Shown one piece after another: positions 5,919-53,710 of a stretch of DNA of 59,118 nucleotides. The first letter of the stretch is position 1. Each line of letters begins with the position of its first letter. The DNA is from Candidatus Magasanikbacteria bacterium CG1_02_32_51 (GTDB lineage: Bacteria; Patescibacteriota; Patescibacteriia; Magasanikbacterales; UBA922), in the NCBI GenBank assembly GCA_001871435.1, contig MNVC01000014.1, forward strand, positions 1 through 59,118, in the 5' to 3' direction. The notes under the pieces were generated by a model. The model saw nothing but the letters and a program-made list of their open reading frames with translations, searched no databases and was not told the DNA's origin. A program made the translations under genes and the position numbers.

Positions 5919-6390
5919 CATTGTCTCATTGTGCCATTGTGCCATTGACTTTTTTTACATTATTTTTTATGATAAAGAAGTTTTTGAGTTTAAAAGATAT
6001 TGACTGTTATTTCTTGTCCTATAATCTTAGTAATTATGTTTGGAATATTGTTATACAGTGGAATTACTTTGAAAAGAATAGTCTTGGTTCACAATTTGCT
6101 CGGGCAATTGATTCAATATCATCAAATATAGCAGAAGGATTTGGTAGATATAATAAAAAAGATAAGGTAAAATTTTATAGATACTCCATGGGTTCACTTT
6201 ACGAATGTTTGGACTGGAATCAAAAATCTATGAAAAGAGATTTGATAACAAAAGAAGATTATAATTTTATTTTTGAAAATTTACAAAAAATTAAACCAGA
6301 GATTTATTCACTGATAAATTATACTAACTTAAAATTAAAATTTTAACATCTTAGTAAAGTCACAATGGGTCAGTGACACAATGAAACAAT
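5919..6390. mobile_element. Hairpin element A: octamer-iterated arms enclosing a four-helix-bundle gene
   Basis: The left arm (5919-5950) is four 8-nt units CATTGTCT, CATTGTGC, CATTGTGC, CATTGACT. The reverse complement of the right arm (6360-6390) reads in the same 8-nt register (ATTGTTT, CATTGTGT, CACTGACC, CATTGTGA). The arms pair over about 30 nt with roughly 24 matches. The gene between them encodes an S23/IVP protein. Calling it mobile is an inference from the repeated architecture in this window. Confidence 0.6.
5969..6346 (+). CDS. Four-helix-bundle protein (S23/23S rRNA IVP family)
   Basis: A 125-aa helical protein with the family hallmarks: FARAIDSISSNIAEGFGRYN, then KVKFYRYSMGSLYECLDW, and a terminal helix. 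The family was named from ORFs inside 23S rRNA intervening sequences and includes the Avd accessory proteins of diversity-generating retroelements; no retroelement is visible here. I chose ATG 5969 because the upstream TTG start would translate the repeat arm (SHCAIVPL). It sits alone between the ligase and gmd, inside inverted octamer arms. Function unknown; nucleic-acid binding is suspected for the family. Confidence 0.85.
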   Translation: MIKKFLSLKDIDCYFLSYNLSNYVWNIVIQWNYFEKNSLGSQFARAIDSISSNIAEGFGRYNKKDKVKFYRYSMGSLYECLDWNQKSMKRDLITKEDYNFIFENLQKIKPEIYSLINYTNLKLKF

Positions 6391-7455: not shown

Positions 7456-7527
7456 TTTTTTGGTGTTTGTTGATATTTGTTTTATTTTGTTATAGACAAG
7501 GATAGAGGTAAGATGAAAATAATTTAG

Positions 7528-7648
7528 GAATTTTAAATTTTGAATTTTAAAACAATTTTTAATGACTCAATTTTTAATATAGTTTAAAAATTAGTTCATT
7601 TATAAATTTGAAATTGTTTTAAAATTCAAAATTCAAAATTCAAAATTC
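7528..7648. repeat. Empty hairpin element B' (heptamer arms)
   Basis: The left arm (7528-7557) and right arm (7612-7641) are inverted repeats matching 29 of 30 by my count, built from GAATTTT heptamers ending AAAACAATT. The 54-nt centre also folds (AATGACTCAATTTTTAA against TTAAAAATTAGTTCATT). The same arms enclose a four-helix-bundle gene at 34281-34744. It ends 3 nt before the fcl ATG. Confidence 0.75.
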
Positions 7649-7651
7649 TTT

Positions 7652-8608
7652 ATGGACTATTCTTCAAAAATATACATCGCCGGTCATAATGGTATGGTTG
7701 GATCAGCGATATTTCGTTTACTCAAGAAACAAGGTTATACAAATCTGTTGACACGTACACATCAGGAGTTGGATCTATTAGACGCCAAAGCTGTGGCAGA
7801 TTTTTTTGTATCAGAAAAACCAGAATATGTTATTTTGGCGGCTGCTAAAGTTGGGGGAATTCTGGCTAATAATATTTACCCGGCAGATTTTTTGTATCAA
7901 AATTTGCAAATTCAAAGTAATGTTATTCATAATGCTTATTTGTCTGGAGTAAAGAAATTATTGTTTTTGGGTTCGTCTTGCATCTATCCAAAAGATTGTC
8001 CGCAACCAATAAAAGAAGAATATTTGTTGACAGGATTACTTGAGCCAACTAATGAAGCCTATGCTATTGCTAAAATTGTTGGTATAAAGATGTGTCAAAG
8101 TTATAATAGACAGTATGGGACTAATTTTATAGCCGTCATGCCGACTAATCTTTATGGGCCAAATGATAATTTTGATTTGGAGAATTCTCATGTTTTACCG
8201 GCTTTACTTCGTAAATTTCATGAAGCAAAAGTAAATAATTTGTTAGAAGTAGAAGTCTGGGGAACAGGCAGACCTAGAAGAGAATTTTTACACGTGGATG
8301 ATATGGCGAAAGCTTGTCTTTTTGTCTTACAAAATTTTGATCCTAGTAAAGAAGAAAATGAAAACGGAGAAATATTTTTTAATATTGGTACTGGGATTGA
8401 TTTGACTATTTTAGAATTAGCAGAAATGATCAGGAGTGTGGTTGGTTTTGAAGGTAAAATTGTCTTTGACAGTAGTAAGCCAGATGGAACGATGCAAAAA
8501 CTTTTGGATGTATCAAAAATAAATAATTTAGGTTGGAAAGATGAAATTGGTCTGAAAGAGGGGGTAAAGCAGATATATGAGTGGTATTTGAACTCTATTG
8601 ACACCTAG
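7652..8608 (+). CDS. fcl: GDP-L-fucose synthase
   Basis: A 318-aa SDR epimerase-reductase. Motifs: IAGHNGMVGSAIFR (NADP binding), SSCIYPKD, EAYAIAKIVG (catalytic Y-x3-K) and HVDDMAKAC. It converts GDP-4-keto-6-deoxymannose from Gmd to GDP-L-fucose, the donor for the two GT11 fucosyltransferases at 17926 and 26823. Full length. The right arm of hairpin B' abuts its start codon, so the leader may carry that structure. Confidence 0.95.
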   Translation: MDYSSKIYIAGHNGMVGSAIFRLLKKQGYTNLLTRTHQELDLLDAKAVADFFVSEKPEYVILAAAKVGGILANNIYPADFLYQNLQIQSNVIHNAYLSGVKKLLFLGSSCIYPKDCPQPIKEEYLLTGLLEPTNEAYAIAKIVGIKMCQSYNRQYGTNFIAVMPTNLYGPNDNFDLENSHVLPALLRKFHEAKVNNLLEVEVWGTGRPRREFLHVDDMAKACLFVLQNFDPSKEENENGEIFFNIGTGIDLTILELAEMIRSVVGFEGKIVFDSSKPDGTMQKLLDVSKINNLGWKDEIGLKEGVKQIYEWYLNSIDT

Positions 8609-8670
8609 TGATACTATATGTTAAAATTGTTTTAGTTGTTGAATCACTACGTTTGTTATAATTAATTTTT

Positions 8671-8726
8671 CAACTACAACAACTACAACAACTACAACAA
8701 CTACAACAACTACAACAACTACAACA
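8671..8726 (+). repeat. 9-bp tandem repeat (CAACTACAA)n
   Basis: About six perfect copies of CAACTACAA, continuing in degenerate form to the ATG at 8747. An upstream GTTTTAGTTGTTG (about 8628-8641) can pair with it, and TATAAT lies between them (8657-8662). It would form the leader of the HTH gene. Confidence 0.8.
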
Positions 8727-8746
8727 TTTACAACATCTAGAACATT

Positions 8747-32891: not shown

Positions 32892-34274
32892 ATGAAAAAA
32901 CCTATGAAACTCCTCTATATTGGTGCCGGATATGTTGGTACTTGTTCAGCAGCTGTCTCTGCCTCAAGTGGGCATGATGTTTTGGTGTATGACATTGATG
33001 AAAAGAAGATAAGTATGTTGTCTTCAGGTGACCGTGACCAGATAGAAGCTTGTCTTTTCGAAGAAGGTCTTAGTGATTTGTTGGTTCGTAATCAAGAAAG
33101 AATAAAATTTACTTTGGATTATCGCAAAGTTGTAGATTTTTTGGATACCTGTGATGCTATTTTCATGTGTTTGCCAACTCCGGAAATTGGAGAAACAGGG
33201 GAGAGTGATCTTAGATATTACAATGAGGCGGCACAGCAATTGGCAGAAAATTTGGCCAAGAGAACTGCTGGAACACAAGAAAAATATATTGTTATAATCA
33301 ACAAAAGTACTGTACCGATAGATATGGTGGATAAGACCTCTGAGATTTTGGAAAGTATGGGTGTCAAGAATTTTGGGGTGGTTTCTAATCCAGAATTTTT
33401 GGTAGAAGGTAAAGCCATTCAAGCATCTATCAAGCCTGATAGAATTGTGGTTGGTGCTTGGACTCAAAAAGATTTTGAAATAATGAGAAAAGTCTATGAA
33501 CGATTCTACAATTCACCTCAGACAAAATATATTGAGATAAATCCCAAAGAAGCGGCAGCAAGTAAACTTCTTGCCAATTATATACTTTTCAATAAATTGG
33601 CTGTGTGTTTCGACGTGGTTGGTCGTACTTGCGAGAGTTTTGAAAATCTTCAATTTGAAAATGTTCGCAATGCTTTGGTCGCAGATCCACGTATTGGAAG
33701 TTGGGGGCTGTACAATAGCCTTTATGCTGGAGGAAGTTGTCTTATCAAAGACGCTCGTTCGCTTTCTCATCAACTCAAATATAAAAATCAAAATACTACA
33801 CTAGTTGATGAGGTTTATTTATCAAACAAAAGACAACTTAATAATTTTTTGAGTAGAATTGATCAAATAATAGATTCTAATTGGTCGAATAAGAAAGTCA
33901 CAATTTTAGGTACAGCATTCAAGCGTGATACCAATGATATTCGCAATTCAGCTAGTATAGAAATTATGAAATATTTGGAAAATAAAAGTATTTCACAAAT
34001 AAATATTTATGATCCAGCTGGGATGGATAATTTCAAAAAAATGTTTGGAGAATCAGAAAAAGTGAAGTATCATCATCACGAATTTGAAGCAATCAAGAAT
34101 TCTGATATAATAATCATAGCTACTGATTGGCCACAGTTTCGTGGTTTGGCTGATGTCATTATTTCTGAGCTTTCTAGCAAACCTTTGATTGCTGATGGGC
34201 GTCGTATGCTCCAACATCGTTATCAGGATTTGAAAGACGCGGGGTTTAAGGTGATTGCAGTAGGAAGTAGATAG
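32892..34274 (+). CDS. ugd: UDP-glucose/GDP-mannose dehydrogenase family protein (UDP-glucose 6-dehydrogenase likely)
   Basis: A 460-aa NAD-dependent four-electron dehydrogenase. LLYIGAGYVGTCSAAVSA is the Rossmann motif, NKSTVPIDMVDK and SNPEFLVEGKAI are conserved, and YAGGSCLIKD holds the catalytic cysteine (usually GGxCFPKD). The C-terminal domain has GTAFKRDTNDIRNSASIEI. It would make UDP-glucuronate for the repeat unit. The LIKD variant and some sequence differences leave the exact substrate open. A TATAAT 9 bp before the start suggests a nearly leaderless transcript. Confidence 0.88.
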   Translation: MKKPMKLLYIGAGYVGTCSAAVSASSGHDVLVYDIDEKKISMLSSGDRDQIEACLFEEGLSDLLVRNQERIKFTLDYRKVVDFLDTCDAIFMCLPTPEIGETGESDLRYYNEAAQQLAENLAKRTAGTQEKYIVIINKSTVPIDMVDKTSEILESMGVKNFGVVSNPEFLVEGKAIQASIKPDRIVVGAWTQKDFEIMRKVYERFYNSPQTKYIEINPKEAAASKLLANYILFNKLAVCFDVVGRTCESFENLQFENVRNALVADPRIGSWGLYNSLYAGGSCLIKDARSLSHQLKYKNQNTTLVDEVYLSNKRQLNNFLSRIDQIIDSNWSNKKVTILGTAFKRDTNDIRNSASIEIMKYLENKSISQINIYDPAGMDNFKKMFGESEKVKYHHHEFEAIKNSDIIIIATDWPQFRGLADVIISELSSKPLIADGRRMLQHRYQDLKDAGFKVIAVGSR

Positions 34275-34280
34275 ATGAAA

Positions 34281-34744
34281 AATTTTGAATTTTGAATTTT
34301 GAATTTTAAAACAATTTTATAATTTTTTAATTTTAAATGGAGGCTATGAATTATGATTTAGAAGAAAGAACGTTGAAGTTTAGTAAAGAAGTTTTAATTT
34401 TTTTATCTGGATTAACAAGTAGTCCAATAAATAATCCAATTATTTCTCAGTTAGTTCGTTCTGCAACTAGTGTTGGTGCAAATTATAGAGAAGCAAATGC
34501 GGCTAGTTCTAAAAAAGATTTCAAAAATAAAATATCAATATCAAGAAAAGAAGCTAATGAAACAAAGTATTGGATAGAATTATTAGGTAATATAGAGTAT
34601 GATAAAGAAGAGTTGCGTAAATTTTGGCAAGAAGCTCATGAATTATCATTAATTTTTGGGAAAATATTTCATAGTTTAACTAGTTAATTCAAAATTTTGT
34701 AATTAGTTAATTGTTTTAAAATTTAAAATTCGAAATTCAAAATT
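34281..34744. mobile_element. Hairpin element B: heptamer arms enclosing a four-helix-bundle gene
   Basis: The left arm (34281-34316) and the reverse complement of the right arm (34709-34744) match at 34 of 36 positions by my count; both are GAATTTT heptamers ending AAAACAATT. The four-helix-bundle gene lies in the apex. The same arms occur without the gene at 7528-7648. Confidence 0.7.
34337..34687 (+). CDS. Four-helix-bundle protein (S23/IVP family)
   Basis: A 116-aa helical protein. Family motifs: PIISQLVRSATSVGANYREANAASSKKDFKNKISISRKEANETKYWIELLG, and HELSLIFGKIFHSL. The start could be 34337 or ATG 34346, which follows GGAGG. Its relative at 53239 shares the RSATS.GANY.EA...SKKDF pattern, while the one at 5969 is more distant. 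It sits in the apex of hairpin element B between ugd and galE, unrelated to either. Function unknown. Confidence 0.87.
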   Translation: MEAMNYDLEERTLKFSKEVLIFLSGLTSSPINNPIISQLVRSATSVGANYREANAASSKKDFKNKISISRKEANETKYWIELLGNIEYDKEELRKFWQEAHELSLIFGKIFHSLTS

Positions 34745-34759
34745 ATAAATATATTTATT

Positions 34760-35770
34760 ATGTCCAAATATCTCATCACCGGCGGTGCTGGCTACATCGG
34801 TAGTCATGTCGTCAAACAACTTATTGAAAAGAAAAATGATATTGTCATTGTGGATAATCTTTCTACTGGTTTTCAAAAAACAGTAAATACTTTGAAAAAA
34901 TACGCTTTGACAAAAAAAGTAAAATTGGGTTTTTACAAATTAGATTTGGCTGATAGTAAAAAATTGGAAACAGTATTTGCCAAAGAAAATGTCCAAGGTG
35001 TGATACATTTTGCAGCCAGTATCGTCGTATCTGAATCAGTGCGCGATCCACTAAAATATTATAGTAACAACACTGGTAATACAATCAATCTTCTCAAAGC
35101 TTGTTTGAAATACAAAGTCAATAAATTTATTTTTAGTTCTACAGCTGCGGTTTATGGTGATCCAGACCCAAAGACTATTCCTCTAAAAGAAAGTGGAATT
35201 ACTATTCCAATAAGTCCCTATGGTTCTAGTAAATTATTTAATGAAAAAATTATTCAAGACGTAGCTTTTGCTAATACAAATTTCAAGTATGTAATTTTGC
35301 GTTATTTCAATGTGGCTGGGGCTAGTGTAGATGGAATGTTAGGACAATCTACCAAAGATGCGACACACTTAATCAAAATTGCTTTGGAAACAACTCTTGG
35401 AAAACGTGAAAAAATGTTTATCAATGGTACAGATTATAATACTCCAGATGGTACCTGTATTCGTGATTATATTTATGTTGATGATTTGGCCTCTGCTCAT
35501 ATCAAATCTTTGTATTATCTAAACAAAAACAAAGGTGGAATTTTCAACTGTGGTTATGGTAAAGGTTTTTCGGTTAAAGACGTAATTAGTATGATGAAGA
35601 AAGTGAGTGGTAATGATTTCAAAGTAGAAACAACCAAAAGACGTGAGGGTGATCCAGCGATTGTCATTGCTGATAATAGTAAAATAGTTAATGAAATGGA
35701 CTGGAAACCGAAGTATGATGATTTGAAGATTATGTGTGAGACAGCGCTGGCTTGGGAGAAAAAGTTGTAA
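34760..35770 (+). CDS. galE: UDP-glucose 4-epimerase
   Basis: A 336-aa SDR: ITGGAGYIGSHVVKQL, VIHFAASIVVSESV, FSSTAAVYGDP, SPYGSSKLFNEK (Y-x3-K) and RDYIYVDDLASAH match GalE. It interconverts UDP-glucose and UDP-galactose (or the GlcNAc/GalNAc pair), supplying galactose to the glycan. It is the last enzyme of the cluster, followed by a heptamer hairpin. Confidence 0.93.
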   Translation: MSKYLITGGAGYIGSHVVKQLIEKKNDIVIVDNLSTGFQKTVNTLKKYALTKKVKLGFYKLDLADSKKLETVFAKENVQGVIHFAASIVVSESVRDPLKYYSNNTGNTINLLKACLKYKVNKFIFSSTAAVYGDPDPKTIPLKESGITIPISPYGSSKLFNEKIIQDVAFANTNFKYVILRYFNVAGASVDGMLGQSTKDATHLIKIALETTLGKREKMFINGTDYNTPDGTCIRDYIYVDDLASAHIKSLYYLNKNKGGIFNCGYGKGFSVKDVISMMKKVSGNDFKVETTKRREGDPAIVIADNSKIVNEMDWKPKYDDLKIMCETALAWEKKL

Positions 35771-40234: not shown

Positions 40235-41671
40235 ATGGAAAAACAAACCAAAATTGTCTGTACTATTGGACCTTCTTGCGAAGATGTAGATACATTGGAA
40301 AAGATGGTTAAGGCGGGGATGAATATCGCTAGACTAAACTTCTCTCACGGCACTTACGAAAATCACAAAATGCTTATTGCCAATATTCGTAAAGTAGAAG
40401 AAAAGACTGGTGAACCAATTGCTATTTTACAAGATTTGCAAGGACCAAAAATTAGAATCGGCAAAGTCGCTAATGAAGGTGTGGCTTTGTTGGCTGGTGA
40501 AGAAGTAATATTTTCTACCGATCCTAAAGATACTAATTATATTCCTTTGGGTTATCCTGAGTTGCATAATTTTGTGAAGCAAGGAGAAATAATGTTGCTT
40601 GATGATGGTAAAATGCAAGTAAAAATAGAAAGAGTAGTTGATAAAAAAATAATTACCAAAGTCATCGTGCCAGGCATACTTACTTCCAACAAAGGTATAA
40701 ATATTCCCCAAACCGATTTGTCAGGTCTAGTTGTTTTGACTGAAAAAGATAAACAAGATGTACGTTTTGGTATTGAAGCTGGAGTAGATATGGTAGCTTT
40801 GTCTTTTGTTATGAGACCAGACGATATTATTGATTTGCGTTATGAGATTGCAAAATGTGAAAAAGAATTAAACAAACCAGAACATTATCCAATACGTCTA
40901 ATTGCCAAAATAGAAAAAGCTGAAGCTGTAAAAAGAATAAAAGAAATATTGGATGTGGCTGATGGTATTATGGTAGCTAGAGGAGATTTGGGTATAGAGA
41001 TTCCTGCTGAAGAAGTACCTATTGTTCAGAAAAAATTGATAGATGTTGCGTTAGAACATGCCAAACCAGTAATTGTGGCTACACAAATGTTGGACTCTAT
41101 GCAAAACAATCCACGTCCGACACGAGCTGAAGTTTCTGATGTTGCTAATGCTGTGACTGATCATACTGATGCTGTGATGCTTTCCAATGAAACTGCTAGT
41201 GGTAAATATCCAGTAGAAGCTGTCACTATGATGACTAAGATTATCAAAGAAACAGAGAAGTCCGAATATACCAAATTATTTTTTCATCAACCAAAAGACA
41301 AAGTAAATAGGATTGATGATACTATTAGTGGTTTATCTAGACTTGTTGCGGAAGATGTAGGTGCCAATCTTATTTTGGCCGCTTCTTTGTCTGGTGAAAC
41401 TGGTCGTCTAATTTCTCGTTATCGTCCCAAATTTCCTATTGCTGTGGCTACTAGTAGCAAATTGGTTTTGCACCAGCTAAATCTTTCTTGGGGAGTTTTC
41501 CCATTTGAGATTGTTGAGTGTCAAAGTATTGAAGAGTTGGTAGAAAGATCTATGACTCATCTGAAAGAAAAAAAAGTTATCAAAAATGGTGATAGAATTA
41601 TTGTCGTTGCTGGTGAACCTGTAGGTCATGCTGGCCATGTAAATTTACTTGAAGTGAGAGAAGTGAAGTAA
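40235..41671 (+). CDS. pyk: Pyruvate kinase
   Basis: A 478-aa enzyme: KIVCTIGPSCED, IARLNFSHGTYENH, LQDLQGPKIRIG, the metal/catalytic LIAKIEKAEAV, VARGDLGIEIP and VATQMLDSM are all intact. The C-terminal domain has SLSGETGRLISRYRP. It converts PEP and ADP to pyruvate and ATP. The gene next to it encodes PEP synthase, the reverse reaction, so the pair controls the pyruvate-PEP node. ATG 40235 is chosen since the promoter covers the upstream part of the ORF. Confidence 0.96.
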   Translation: MEKQTKIVCTIGPSCEDVDTLEKMVKAGMNIARLNFSHGTYENHKMLIANIRKVEEKTGEPIAILQDLQGPKIRIGKVANEGVALLAGEEVIFSTDPKDTNYIPLGYPELHNFVKQGEIMLLDDGKMQVKIERVVDKKIITKVIVPGILTSNKGINIPQTDLSGLVVLTEKDKQDVRFGIEAGVDMVALSFVMRPDDIIDLRYEIAKCEKELNKPEHYPIRLIAKIEKAEAVKRIKEILDVADGIMVARGDLGIEIPAEEVPIVQKKLIDVALEHAKPVIVATQMLDSMQNNPRPTRAEVSDVANAVTDHTDAVMLSNETASGKYPVEAVTMMTKIIKETEKSEYTKLFFHQPKDKVNRIDDTISGLSRLVAEDVGANLILAASLSGETGRLISRYRPKFPIAVATSSKLVLHQLNLSWGVFPFEIVECQSIEELVERSMTHLKEKKVIKNGDRIIVVAGEPVGHAGHVNLLEVREVK

Positions 41672-41730
41672 AAGGCTCGAAAGGCCTAAGATGCTTGAAA
41701 TGCCAGAAAGGTCTAAAAGCTATGAGTAAT

Positions 41731-41848
41731 AATTTCAAATTTCAAAATCCAAATTTCAAATCAATTACAAATGACTTAATTCCAAAATTTTATATTTGAA
41801 ATTAGGATTTGATTTGAAATTTGGGCTTTGTAATTTGTCATTTAATAC
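41731..41848. repeat. Empty hairpin element C' nested in element D
   Basis: CAAANNN heptamers. The left arm and the reverse complement of the right arm match at about 27 of 32 positions, including a perfect 16-bp core CCAAATTTCAAATCAA. It is close in sequence to the arms of the gene-bearing element at 53258-53710. It occupies the position where the 5' part of the four-helix-bundle gene would be. Confidence 0.7.
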
Positions 41849-41868
41849 TACTATTTTTGTATATTTCC

Positions 41869-42024
41869 AAAGGTTCATTAAATGAGTGTCAGTGTTATTT
41901 TGAATTAGTTAAAGAATTAGATTTTATAAATCAAAAACAATTTGACTATATAGAAAACAAGTGTGGTGAAGTTGGTTTCTTACTTTTTAAATTAATCAAA
42001 TCCTTGGAAAATTCAAAAGCCTAA
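41869..42024 (+). pseudogene. 3' fragment of a four-helix-bundle (S23/IVP) gene
   Basis: Reads SKGSLNECQCYFELVKELDFINQKQFDYIENKCGEVGFLLFKLIKSL, the C-terminal half of the family (KGSLxExx..L..A.EL). The N-terminal half is missing; the upstream part of the track ORF is translated C' hairpin. Probably inactive. Confidence 0.7.
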
Positions 42025-42088
42025 TTGAGCTCGTCAAGAGCCTTTTGAGCTTTTCAAGCTTTTTAGGCCTTTCAGGCTTTTTCCAATT

Positions 42089-49376: not shown

Positions 49377-49440
49377 GAAAGTTATAAAGTTAAAAGTTCA
49401 TAAAGTACTTTTGACTTTACGAACTTTACGAACTTTTGAC
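49377..49440. repeat. Empty hairpin element F (AAAGTTNNT units)
   Basis: Left arm AAAGTTAT, AAAGTTAA, AAGTTCAT, AAAGT. The reverse complement of the right arm is AAAAGTTCGT, AAAGTTCGT, AAAGTC. A very short loop (ACTTTT region) joins them. It lies between tmRNA and infC; its right arm ends 9 bp from the tmRNA 3' end. Confidence 0.7.
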
Positions 49441-49448
49441 TAATTTTG

Positions 49449-49853: not shown

Positions 49854-49982
49854 CTTTTTTTGTCAAATGACAATTTTTAGATTACAAAGTTTTTGTAATT
49901 TAAATGGTTATCATTTTATTAAACGCTGAAAAATAAAATAGAGATACAATTGAGATAATTTTTGTTTAAAAAAGTAAAATTA

Positions 49983-50011
49983 CAATGAAACAATGGAACA
50001 ATATAACAATG
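49983..50011 (-). repeat. Solitary octamer arm (YATTGTNN) downstream of smpB
   Basis: On the minus strand CATTGTTA, TATTGTTC, CATTGTTT, CATTGTA. Same unit type as elements A and A'. No pairing arm nearby. It lies within 6 bp of the smpB stop. Confidence 0.6.
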
Positions 50012-50016
50012 GTTTT

Positions 50017-50463
50017 TTAATAGTCACCCTTGAGGGCACGGTGCATATCACGGCTTTCTTGGCGTTCTTTTAGGATACGTTTTTTATCAAATTGTTTTTT
50101 GCCATGACCAATACCAATTTCTACCTTTATTTTACGGCCTTTAGTATATACTGACAGGGGTAGTATTGTCAAGCCTTTTTCTTGTATTTTTCCTGTTAAA
50201 TAAGCTATTTGTTTCTTGTTTAATAATATTTTACGACTTCTTTCTGGTTCATAATCCTTGATAGTAGCATATTTATATTTGGAAATATGAGTATTTAATA
50301 GATAGGCTGCCCCATCATGAATAGTTACAAAGCTACCAGTAAGCTTGATTTGTTTGCTTCTTATAGCCTTTACTTCTGATCCGGTCAATACCAAACCAGC
50401 CTCAAAGGTTTCAAGGATTTCATAATCAAATCTGGCTTTTTTGTTGATGGCGTAGGTGGGCAT
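50017..50463 (-). CDS. smpB: SsrA-binding protein SmpB
   Basis: A 148-aa OB-fold protein: NKKARFDYEILETFEAGLVLTGSEVKAIRSKQIKL, NTHISKYKYA, and the basic C-terminal tail GHGKKQFDKKRILKERQESRDMHRAL that enters the mRNA channel. It binds tmRNA, whose gene is next downstream. Full length. Confidence 0.96.
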   Translation of the reverse strand: MPTYAINKKARFDYEILETFEAGLVLTGSEVKAIRSKQIKLTGSFVTIHDGAAYLLNTHISKYKYATIKDYEPERSRKILLNKKQIAYLTGKIQEKGLTILPLSVYTKGRKIKVEIGIGHGKKQFDKKRILKERQESRDMHRALKGDY

Positions 50464-50529
50464 AGTATTGCATTTATTGAAGTACTCTAATGCTAGATGT
50501 AAGATTAAAGTGTGTGATAAGTGCTTTTA

Positions 50530-50597
50530 TATTGTTACATTGTTAAATTGTTATTTTGTTATTGCTCAATTTAGCCATATAACAATTTAACAATTGC
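50530..50597. repeat. Empty hairpin element A''' (TTGTTANN octamers)
   Basis: Left arm TATTGTTA, CATTGTTA, AATTGTTA, TTTTGTTA. The right arm (50576-50597), reverse complemented, reads CAATTGTTAAATTGTTATAT. It lies in the 393-bp divergent gap between smpB and the membrane-protein operon. Confidence 0.65.
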
Positions 50598-50675
50598 TAA
50601 AATTAGAAAACAATCTTCTAAAATAATGAACTCTATAGGATATTTCGTGTTTATCATAAGCTATTTAGCACTTTT

Positions 50676-53238: not shown

Positions 53239-53658
53239 ATGGAGGGGGATACAATAATTACAAATGACAAAATCCAAATTACAAATCAAAATCAAAATAC
53301 CAATGTCAAAGTTTACGACTTAGTTGAGAGAACAGGAAAATTTGGTGAAGATATAATAGTCTTTCTGAAGACTTTGGTAAGAGATGTTATAAATAACAGG
53401 TTGATAGACCAAATAATTAGATCAGCTACTAGTATAGGTGCAAATTATATGGAAGCAGACGGTGCTGAATCAAAAAAAGATTTTATACACAAAATGGCAA
53501 TATGCAAAAAAGAAGCAAAAGAAACAGAACATTGGCTTAAAATGTTGGCCAAAGCAAATGATAGTAGAATAGACGAATGTAGGAAATTGTGGAAAGAAGT
53601 ACATGAGTTGACATTAATATTTTCAAGTATTTTAAATAAAAGTAAAAATAAGAAATAA
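53239..53658 (+). CDS. Four-helix-bundle protein (S23/IVP family)
   Basis: 139 aa. The family core begins near residue 25: VKVYDLVERTGKFGEDIIVFLKTL, IRSATSIGANYMEADGAESKKDFIHKMAICKKEAKETEHWLKML, HELTLIFSSIL. The first 24 residues (ITNDKIQITNQNQNTN) are encoded by the left arm of hairpin element C, so the natural start may be later or the arm is translated. It separates the PDZ operon from the Wzz-like gene and has no functional link to either. Confidence 0.87.
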   Translation: MEGDTIITNDKIQITNQNQNTNVKVYDLVERTGKFGEDIIVFLKTLVRDVINNRLIDQIIRSATSIGANYMEADGAESKKDFIHKMAICKKEAKETEHWLKMLAKANDSRIDECRKLWKEVHELTLIFSSILNKSKNKK

Positions 53659-53710
53659 TTTTGCATTTATTATTTGAAATTGATTTGACATTTGAACTTT
53701 GAAATTTGGT
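53258..53710. mobile_element. Hairpin element C: heptamer arms around a four-helix-bundle gene
   Basis: Ungapped comparison of the left arm (53258-53310) with the reverse complement of the right arm (about 53655-53708) gives about 37 of 53 matches, with mismatches mostly in adjacent pairs. Units are CAAATGA, CAAAATC, CAAATTA, CAAATCA. The related empty hairpin is at 41731-41848. Confidence 0.6.

Follow-up and report, generated by a model that had tools for sequence, protein, structure and literature searches.

The 59,118-nucleotide stretch of Candidatus Magasanikbacteria bacterium CG1_02_32_51 analyzed in this study (the window) contains two hairpins with similar arms, one of which encloses a gene for a four-helix-bundle (FHB) protein, and the other only a short spacer. 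This raises the question of whether the two hairpins are related as a gene-bearing mobile element and its MITE-like derivative, and of what kind of element they would represent.

The two hairpins and their family in the genome

The 5' arm of the gene-bearing hairpin, AATTTTGAATTTTGAATTTTGAATTTTAAAACAATT (34281-34316), was identical at 34 of 36 positions to the reverse complement of 34709-34744, with mismatches at positions 13 and 21, and the arms of the gene-less hairpin paired at 29 of 30 positions. Both values, re-read directly from the sequence, are those of the original prediction, which had also placed a 116-aa four-helix-bundle gene within one pair of arms and 54 nt that fold within the other. 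Analysis with hmmscan bore this out, matching the product of the enclosed gene to PF05635 (23S_rRNA_IVP, E 6e-18) and TIGR02436 (four helix bundle protein, E 2e-23). Fold energies compared with those of shuffled sequences gave z = -4.4 for 34270-34760 and z = -8.1 for 7520-7655, and no shuffle was equally good in either case. The FHB protein has a predicted pI of 6.7, i.e. it is not basic. The gene-bearing element is located between the UGDH and galE genes, not inside a 23S rRNA gene, and the gene-less hairpin is located between gmd and fcl. Features of these hairpins and of other elements are listed in Table 1.

Table 1. Hairpins, arms and FHB genes in the window, and insertion sequences located in GAATTTT hairpins of the genome.
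Feature	Position	Strand	Basis and remarks
5' arm, gene-bearing element	34281..34316	+	GAATTTT heptad units, core AAAACAATT; tandem period 7; 34/36 complementary to 34709-34744
FHB gene (PF05635, TIGR02436), 116 aa, in loop	34337..34687	+	hmmscan; homologues with homologous arms elsewhere in G001, G002 and G004
3' arm, gene-bearing element	34709..34744	-	complementarity to 5' arm
5' arm, gene-less copy	7528..7557	+	29/30 complementary to 7612-7641; similarity begins at ~7517
Loop of gene-less copy, 54 nt, self-complementary	7558..7611	.	whole-hairpin fold z -8.1
3' arm, gene-less copy	7612..7641	-	complementarity to 7528-7557; arm runs on to ~7651
Second FHB element	5920..6390	+	CATTGTG-unit arms 5920-5949 and 6359-6390; ORF 5921-6346, PF05635 domain 5993-6304
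Third FHB element	53261..53708	+	CAAATTN-unit arms 53261-53313 and 53657-53708; ORF 53239-53658
Decayed FHB element	41670..42082	+	AAAGGC-type arms 41670-41711 and 42041-42082; FHB remnant 41854-41985
Gene-less heptad hairpin nested in decayed FHB element	41725..41849	.	arms resemble those of the 53261-53708 element
Gene-less hairpin, AAAGTTCAT-type units	49388..49441	.	
Gene-less hairpin, 8-nt TTGTTANA-type units	50525..50610	.	downstream of smpB
IS481-like IS inside GAATTTT hairpins	G000 contigs C12, C20, C40 and C48		loci L319, L003, L013 and L015

A search of the 837-kb genome (G000) for the core GAATTTTAAAACAATT, with at most one mismatch, gave 31 matches, and the reversed pattern used as a control gave none, so the copies of the core are not due to chance. 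At these matches there are about 18-20 hairpins of roughly 110-130 nt each, and the FHB gene is present only in that at 34281-34744. Alignment on the core of 30 hairpin records from five species revealed common limits at about 37-39 nt per arm, beyond which conservation falls. The common boundary positions expected of related copies were thus found, and the original description, confined to arms of 30-36 nt at two loci, is widened accordingly: the arms are longer, and the two loci are two of the 18-20 or so copies in this genome.

Comparison of gene-bearing with gene-less copies indicated that their similarity continues for about 26 nt inward of the arms. It was clearest for the left flank in G000, where none of 300 shuffles was as good, and for the right flank in the congener G001, whose best match had p = 0.007, and was weaker in the remaining comparisons. 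Inner sequence common to both forms fits an origin of the gene-less copies as internal deletions, and the view that the hairpins at 34281-34744 and 7528 represent a single element family, the former with and the latter without the gene, is supported. The gene-less copies lie mostly between co-directional or convergent genes, with one between divergent genes. A separate observation concerns an IS481-like insertion sequence (IS) with TGTAAG ends, which is present at many contig ends and also sits inside four of the GAATTTT hairpins; such hairpins may be favoured targets of this IS.

The window contains further elements of similar design with other repeat units. The left arm of the third FHB element overlaps the predicted N-terminus of its FHB ORF, and the gene-less hairpin inside the decayed element reads as a nested insertion. 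Several other features were observed. On one side of the smpB gene (49976-50610 region) are ACAATGGA-type units in a solo array (49982-50011), and on the other is the hairpin downstream of it; the gene looks enclosed through inverted similarity, yet the array and the hairpin are apparently two separate remnants. At 8614-8744, eight copies of CAACTACAA form a tandem array of 9-nt units, which pairs with a short upstream stretch. A small nucleotidyltransferase-like gene adjoins a HepT-like gene (PF01934) at 574-1206, and these two probably form a toxin-antitoxin pair.

FHB and GxxExxY genes in inverted repeat arms

PF05635 genes were present in 29 of 41 genomes of the bacterial family, with up to 16 copies per genome. 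Arms were detected as inverted similarity of the two flanks of a gene, scored by local alignment against mismatched flank pairs, with the same procedure applied to controls. The flanks of 84 of 98 family FHB genes exceeded the 95th percentile of mismatched pairs and those of 61 exceeded the 99th, leaving 14 genes without detectable arms. The corresponding numbers were 6 and 0 of 136 for neighbouring ORFs and 6 and 0 of 234 for random spans. A wider set, which included CPR lineages, Bacteroidota, Cyanobacteria, Deltaproteobacteria, Firmicutes, an ANME-1 archaeon and others, gave 59 of 75 usable loci above the 95th percentile of its own control, which was itself raised because different elements have units in common. 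This set was drawn from genome contigs with a three-protein profile search and is consequently biased towards FHB proteins similar to the profile members. One locus (L069), whose orientation had been misread, was excluded from later statistics.

The arms have a characteristic composition. A period of 7 was found in 142 of 244 FHB arms, followed by periods of 8 and 9, and in almost none of the shuffled arms; the 5' arm, read on the sense strand of the gene, was purine-rich in 103 of 120 informative elements. Unit order was mirrored between the arms more than after permutation of the units in 60 of 72 elements, a test biased by the picking of arms through alignment; with this bias, the result counters an interpretation of the arms as pure iteron arrays, which would not have mirrored order. 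Most FHB domains (92 of 124) are basic, with a pI above 8.5. Genes for GxxExxY (PF13366), a PD-(D/E)XK-type protein, had arms of the same kind at 20 of 26 loci.

Both kinds of genes are oriented with their surroundings. FHB genes had the same direction as the upstream gene in a ratio of 73:2 for the family and 59:3 for the wider sample (132:5 in all), and GxxExxY genes in a ratio of 23:1, which fits genes being read from host transcripts. In order to compare arms with proteins, pairs of elements without a homologous neighbour gene were selected. Arm units were largely common in 48% of the pairs whose proteins had a similarity above 0.7, against about 0.5% where it was below 0.4, and the Mantel correlation between arm unit and protein was 0.25, compared with a permutation maximum of 0.10. 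Since the arm unit tracks the FHB sequence at different sites, the gene and its arms travel together.

Searches for other associations were largely negative. An Rfam scan of 18 FHB loci detected no rRNA and one tRNA, so that insertion of FHB elements into structured RNA genes was rejected. Comparison with plasmid sequences gave no match, and comparison with viral contigs gave a single weak match of 21 residues. Two further observations were made in these surveys. An FHB element with TAGCCAATAGTTCATAG-type arms is located between ybaB- and recR-like genes in four genomes from different genera (L058, L060, L063 and L065); a single insertion of great age or several insertions at the same place would account for this. 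PF13366 matches were also found in frames of 736-869 aa rather than about 135 aa (G033:C14, G027:C30, G009:C30 and G033:C4); fusion with another domain or an in-frame insertion may account for these.

Dispersal and turnover in congeners

The congeners provided one draft genome per species, so junctions are known from comparison between species. The FHB gene with homologous arms was found at different sites in these genomes, next to a sigma-factor-like gene in G001 and at a single site common to G002 and G004. Arms differ among the species and change in concert, as with GAATTTTCAATTTTCAAACAATT facing AATTGTTTGAAAATTGAAAATTC in G004.

Orthologous sites were occupied by different elements. The UGDH/galE gap contains the FHB element in G000 and a gene-less hairpin with TACGAAA units in G002. 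Three states were seen for the gmd/fcl gap: the GAATTTT hairpin (G000), a GxxExxY gene enclosed by arms of TACGAAT type (G004) and something different from both (G002). At two sites where G000 has gene-less GAATTTT hairpins, G003 has FHB elements whose arms are of another kind. Within the close pair G002 and G004, three FHB elements are present in the latter and absent from the former, with flanks 90-99% identical at these sites; the counterparts in G002 are two gene-less hairpins with other units and one right-arm-like remnant with another palindrome. For about 11 of the sites with a gene-less copy in G000, a congener has an occupied orthologous position as well, so many copies are old or held in place. 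Turnover is therefore mixed with long persistence at gene-less sites. The presence of a different hairpin at the same site could also mean that selection favours a hairpin at this place.

The G002/G004 junctions, inspected at the species level, showed no target-site duplication, and the orthologous sites that were "empty" of a given element held a different hairpin, with no clean empty site among them. No insertion within a single species was seen among the genomes, with one genome per species. The original prediction of a MITE-like relation consequently holds for the pair of gene-bearing and gene-less forms with the same ends, and is not supported for MITEs in the strict sense, which would have a transposase and a target duplication. 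The check that it proposed, a look for empty sites and target duplications in close relatives, gave replaced sites only; identical arms in all strains with no variation in presence, which would have spoken against mobility, were not seen.

Proposed mechanism, alternatives and related repeats

We propose, with a probability of roughly 60%, that both loci belong to one class of elements, consisting of heptad-armed FHB or GxxExxY elements and their gene-less derivatives. The proposal builds on the observed design and its statistics, the linkage of arm and protein, the occurrence at different sites, the turnover at orthologous sites and the sense orientation to the upstream gene. The design observed is that of an FHB (PF05635) or GxxExxY (PF13366) gene placed between two inverted arrays, each with about four to five degenerate units, mostly of 7 nt, that pair as a hairpin with the gene in its loop. 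In the proposed model, the gene would usually lack a promoter of its own and be transcribed from the upstream host transcript. The FHB protein would recognise its own repeat unit, which would explain why unit and protein go together, and gene-less hairpins would have arisen by internal deletion and would owe their mobility to FHB protein supplied in trans by a gene-bearing relative. Copying would proceed via the hairpin, probably as DNA, into intergenic gaps, with insertion occurring without target duplication and often where a hairpin already stands. The model is weakened by the lack of an insertion event within one species, of a target duplication and of a clean empty site, by the gene-less sites that are also occupied in congeners, by the non-basic FHB protein at 34337 and by the FHB genes without detectable arms. 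We know of no nuclease or recombinase activity for FHB proteins, which also counts against it; the cutting and joining enzymes may be host functions.

The main rival explanation is that FHB elements are mobile at the RNA level, as intervening sequences in mRNA and 23S rRNA whose stem folds in the transcript and is excised by RNase III, either with insertion into sense RNA or with reverse transcription by a borrowed RT, the FHB protein acting like the accessory protein Avd of diversity-generating retroelements (DGRs). The sense orientation within co-directional gene runs and the strong RNA folds of both hairpins agree with such a route, as do the layout, which is the same as in the Coxiella intervening sequence, where RNase III cuts a terminal stem of 28 bp (PMC4990558), and the resemblance of PF05635 to Avd (PMC10053308). 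Sense bias alone is no proof of it, however, because unexpressed antisense copies could be lost. Arm mismatches in the sense strand comprised G.U and A.C in ratios of 71:73 and 33:42, and this lack of preference for G.U, unexpected if RNA pairing had been kept, speaks against selection on arm pairing at the RNA level. No RT was noticed by eye beside the elements. The RNA-level route is thus considered unlikely, although it retains an appreciable chance.

A further alternative is that the hairpins are not mobile and are useful in place as terminators, mRNA protection or insulators, changing by slippage or arm-to-arm copying, with the FHB genes as bystanders. The difference in hairpin unit between sister species at a given site, the occupation of orthologous sites in congeners and the mostly co-directional or convergent placement of gene-less copies would be accounted for, and an effect on transcript stability, translation coupling or termination has been suggested for STRR hairpins (PMC2670836). 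It is difficult to reconcile with 31 core matches in one genome and a gene with its arms at unrelated sites, which need dispersal, or with the tracking of protein by arm unit, the absence of flanking arms at neighbouring genes and the nested insertion in the decayed FHB element, and we regard it as improbable. That the hairpins are ordinary MITEs of a DDE transposon, for which the IS481-like IS found here would be an example, and that the FHB gene travels in them by accident, is largely refuted and has only a very slim chance of being correct. Terminal inverted repeats, multicopy gene-less forms and the IS481-like IS inside four of the hairpins would favour it; the IS, however, has TGTAAG termini of its own and copies without GAATTTT arms, by which it was rejected as the autonomous partner, target duplication was not seen, and the arms around FHB genes comprise dozens of different units across phyla.

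The preferred reading, a class of mobile elements with heptad arms and FHB or GxxExxY genes, was compared with known systems. The intervening sequences of 23S rRNA in Coxiella and Leptospira likewise contain an S23p/IVP ORF of PF05635 type in a terminal inverted-repeat stem loop of about 430-440 nt that is read in sense from the host transcript, and that of Coxiella has the S23p frame within a 28-bp stem cut by RNase III (PMC4990558). The present elements differ in their location between protein genes, their many copies, their arms of tandem repeats and the existence of gene-less relatives. They share with MITEs their short length, multiple copies, terminal inverted repeats and apparent derivation by internal deletion from a gene-bearing element, and differ in having no transposase or visible target duplication and in arms that are tandem arrays whose unit varies by family. 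No transposon that combines these ends with a transposase was found as a partner; the sole gene found between the ends was FHB. Avd has a related four-helix-bundle fold (PMC10053308), whereas an RT, template or variable repeat was not noticed at these loci, nor were such DGR parts evident among the ORFs of the window. REP/RAYT systems (Y1) also combine intergenic palindromes with a dedicated protein and are represented in the window at 1291-1972; their palindromes (GTAGGGACAGGTC) and protein are different, heptad arrays are absent and the gene is not enclosed in a loop. The GTAG-type palindrome was absent from the arms of FHB elements. The RAYT-like Y1 transposase gene itself is located at 1400-1972, with REP-like palindromes (GTAGGGACAGGTC...GACCTGTCCCTAC) at 1291-1318 and near 469-511, and a further such palindrome lies within this gene at about 1700-1725, apparently in frame.

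A further likeness is to STRR and other heptanucleotide repeats, intergenic arrays of degenerate 7-nt units that occur in many copies and partly form inverted hairpins (PMC2670836, PMC4679880, PMC4692102, PMC2700814) in cyanobacteria, in Beggiatoaceae (TAACTGA), in Xanthomonas (GGGAATC) and, as heptads, in Geobacter. They differ in including many solo arrays and in being called regulatory or of unknown function, with no link to FHB in the papers found. Cyanobacterial STRR are usually 7-bp repeats able to form hairpins, with no known function (PMC2670836), TAACTGA is a repeat of Beggiatoaceae, cyanobacteria and Bacteroidetes and a possible regulatory site (PMC4679880), and the 70 inverted GGGAATC heptad pairs of X. 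campestris are reported to be generally without mobile-element association (PMC4692102). Two solved FHB relatives were found, one of which, 2gsc, is XCC0516, a protein of Xanthomonas campestris (PMC4990558). The FHB arms of Okeania have CAGGAGN, AGGCAAC and TCAGTTA units, the last being the reverse complement of the published TAACTGA (PMC4679880). Repeats of STRR type and TAACTGA are thus among the arm heptads of this genus. CAGGAGN arrays numbered 2406 (control 2) and 1775 in two Okeania genomes and 193 (control 0) in Chryseosolibacter, where some matches were gene-less hairpins and others solo arrays.

STRR, TAACTGA and related intergenic heptanucleotide repeats would then be gene-less or solo-arm members of the class. 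As a tentative extension, which we rate a little below even odds, the intergenic heptanucleotide repeats (STRR, TAACTGA, GGGAATC and relatives) found in bacteria and some archaea may be arms or gene-less derivatives of one mobile class that has no known transposase, whose masters are FHB and GxxExxY elements, in which each FHB protein recognises its own unit, and to which the intervening sequences of 23S rRNA would belong as members that came to lie in rRNA. For STRR in general, this proposal is based on unit identity in the two Okeania genomes and the one Chryseosolibacter genome. The literature available to us, mostly outside subscription journals, contained no report linking FHB or GxxExxY genes to tandem-repeat arms, and an earlier description is possible.

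If the proposal is correct, the arm unit should predict the type of protein and vice versa, which can be tested. It would provide a function for two common uncharacterised small proteins, the 'four helix bundle protein' and the 'GxxExxY protein', would explain heptanucleotide repeats that have been known for decades, and would place the intervening sequences of rRNA in a wider family.
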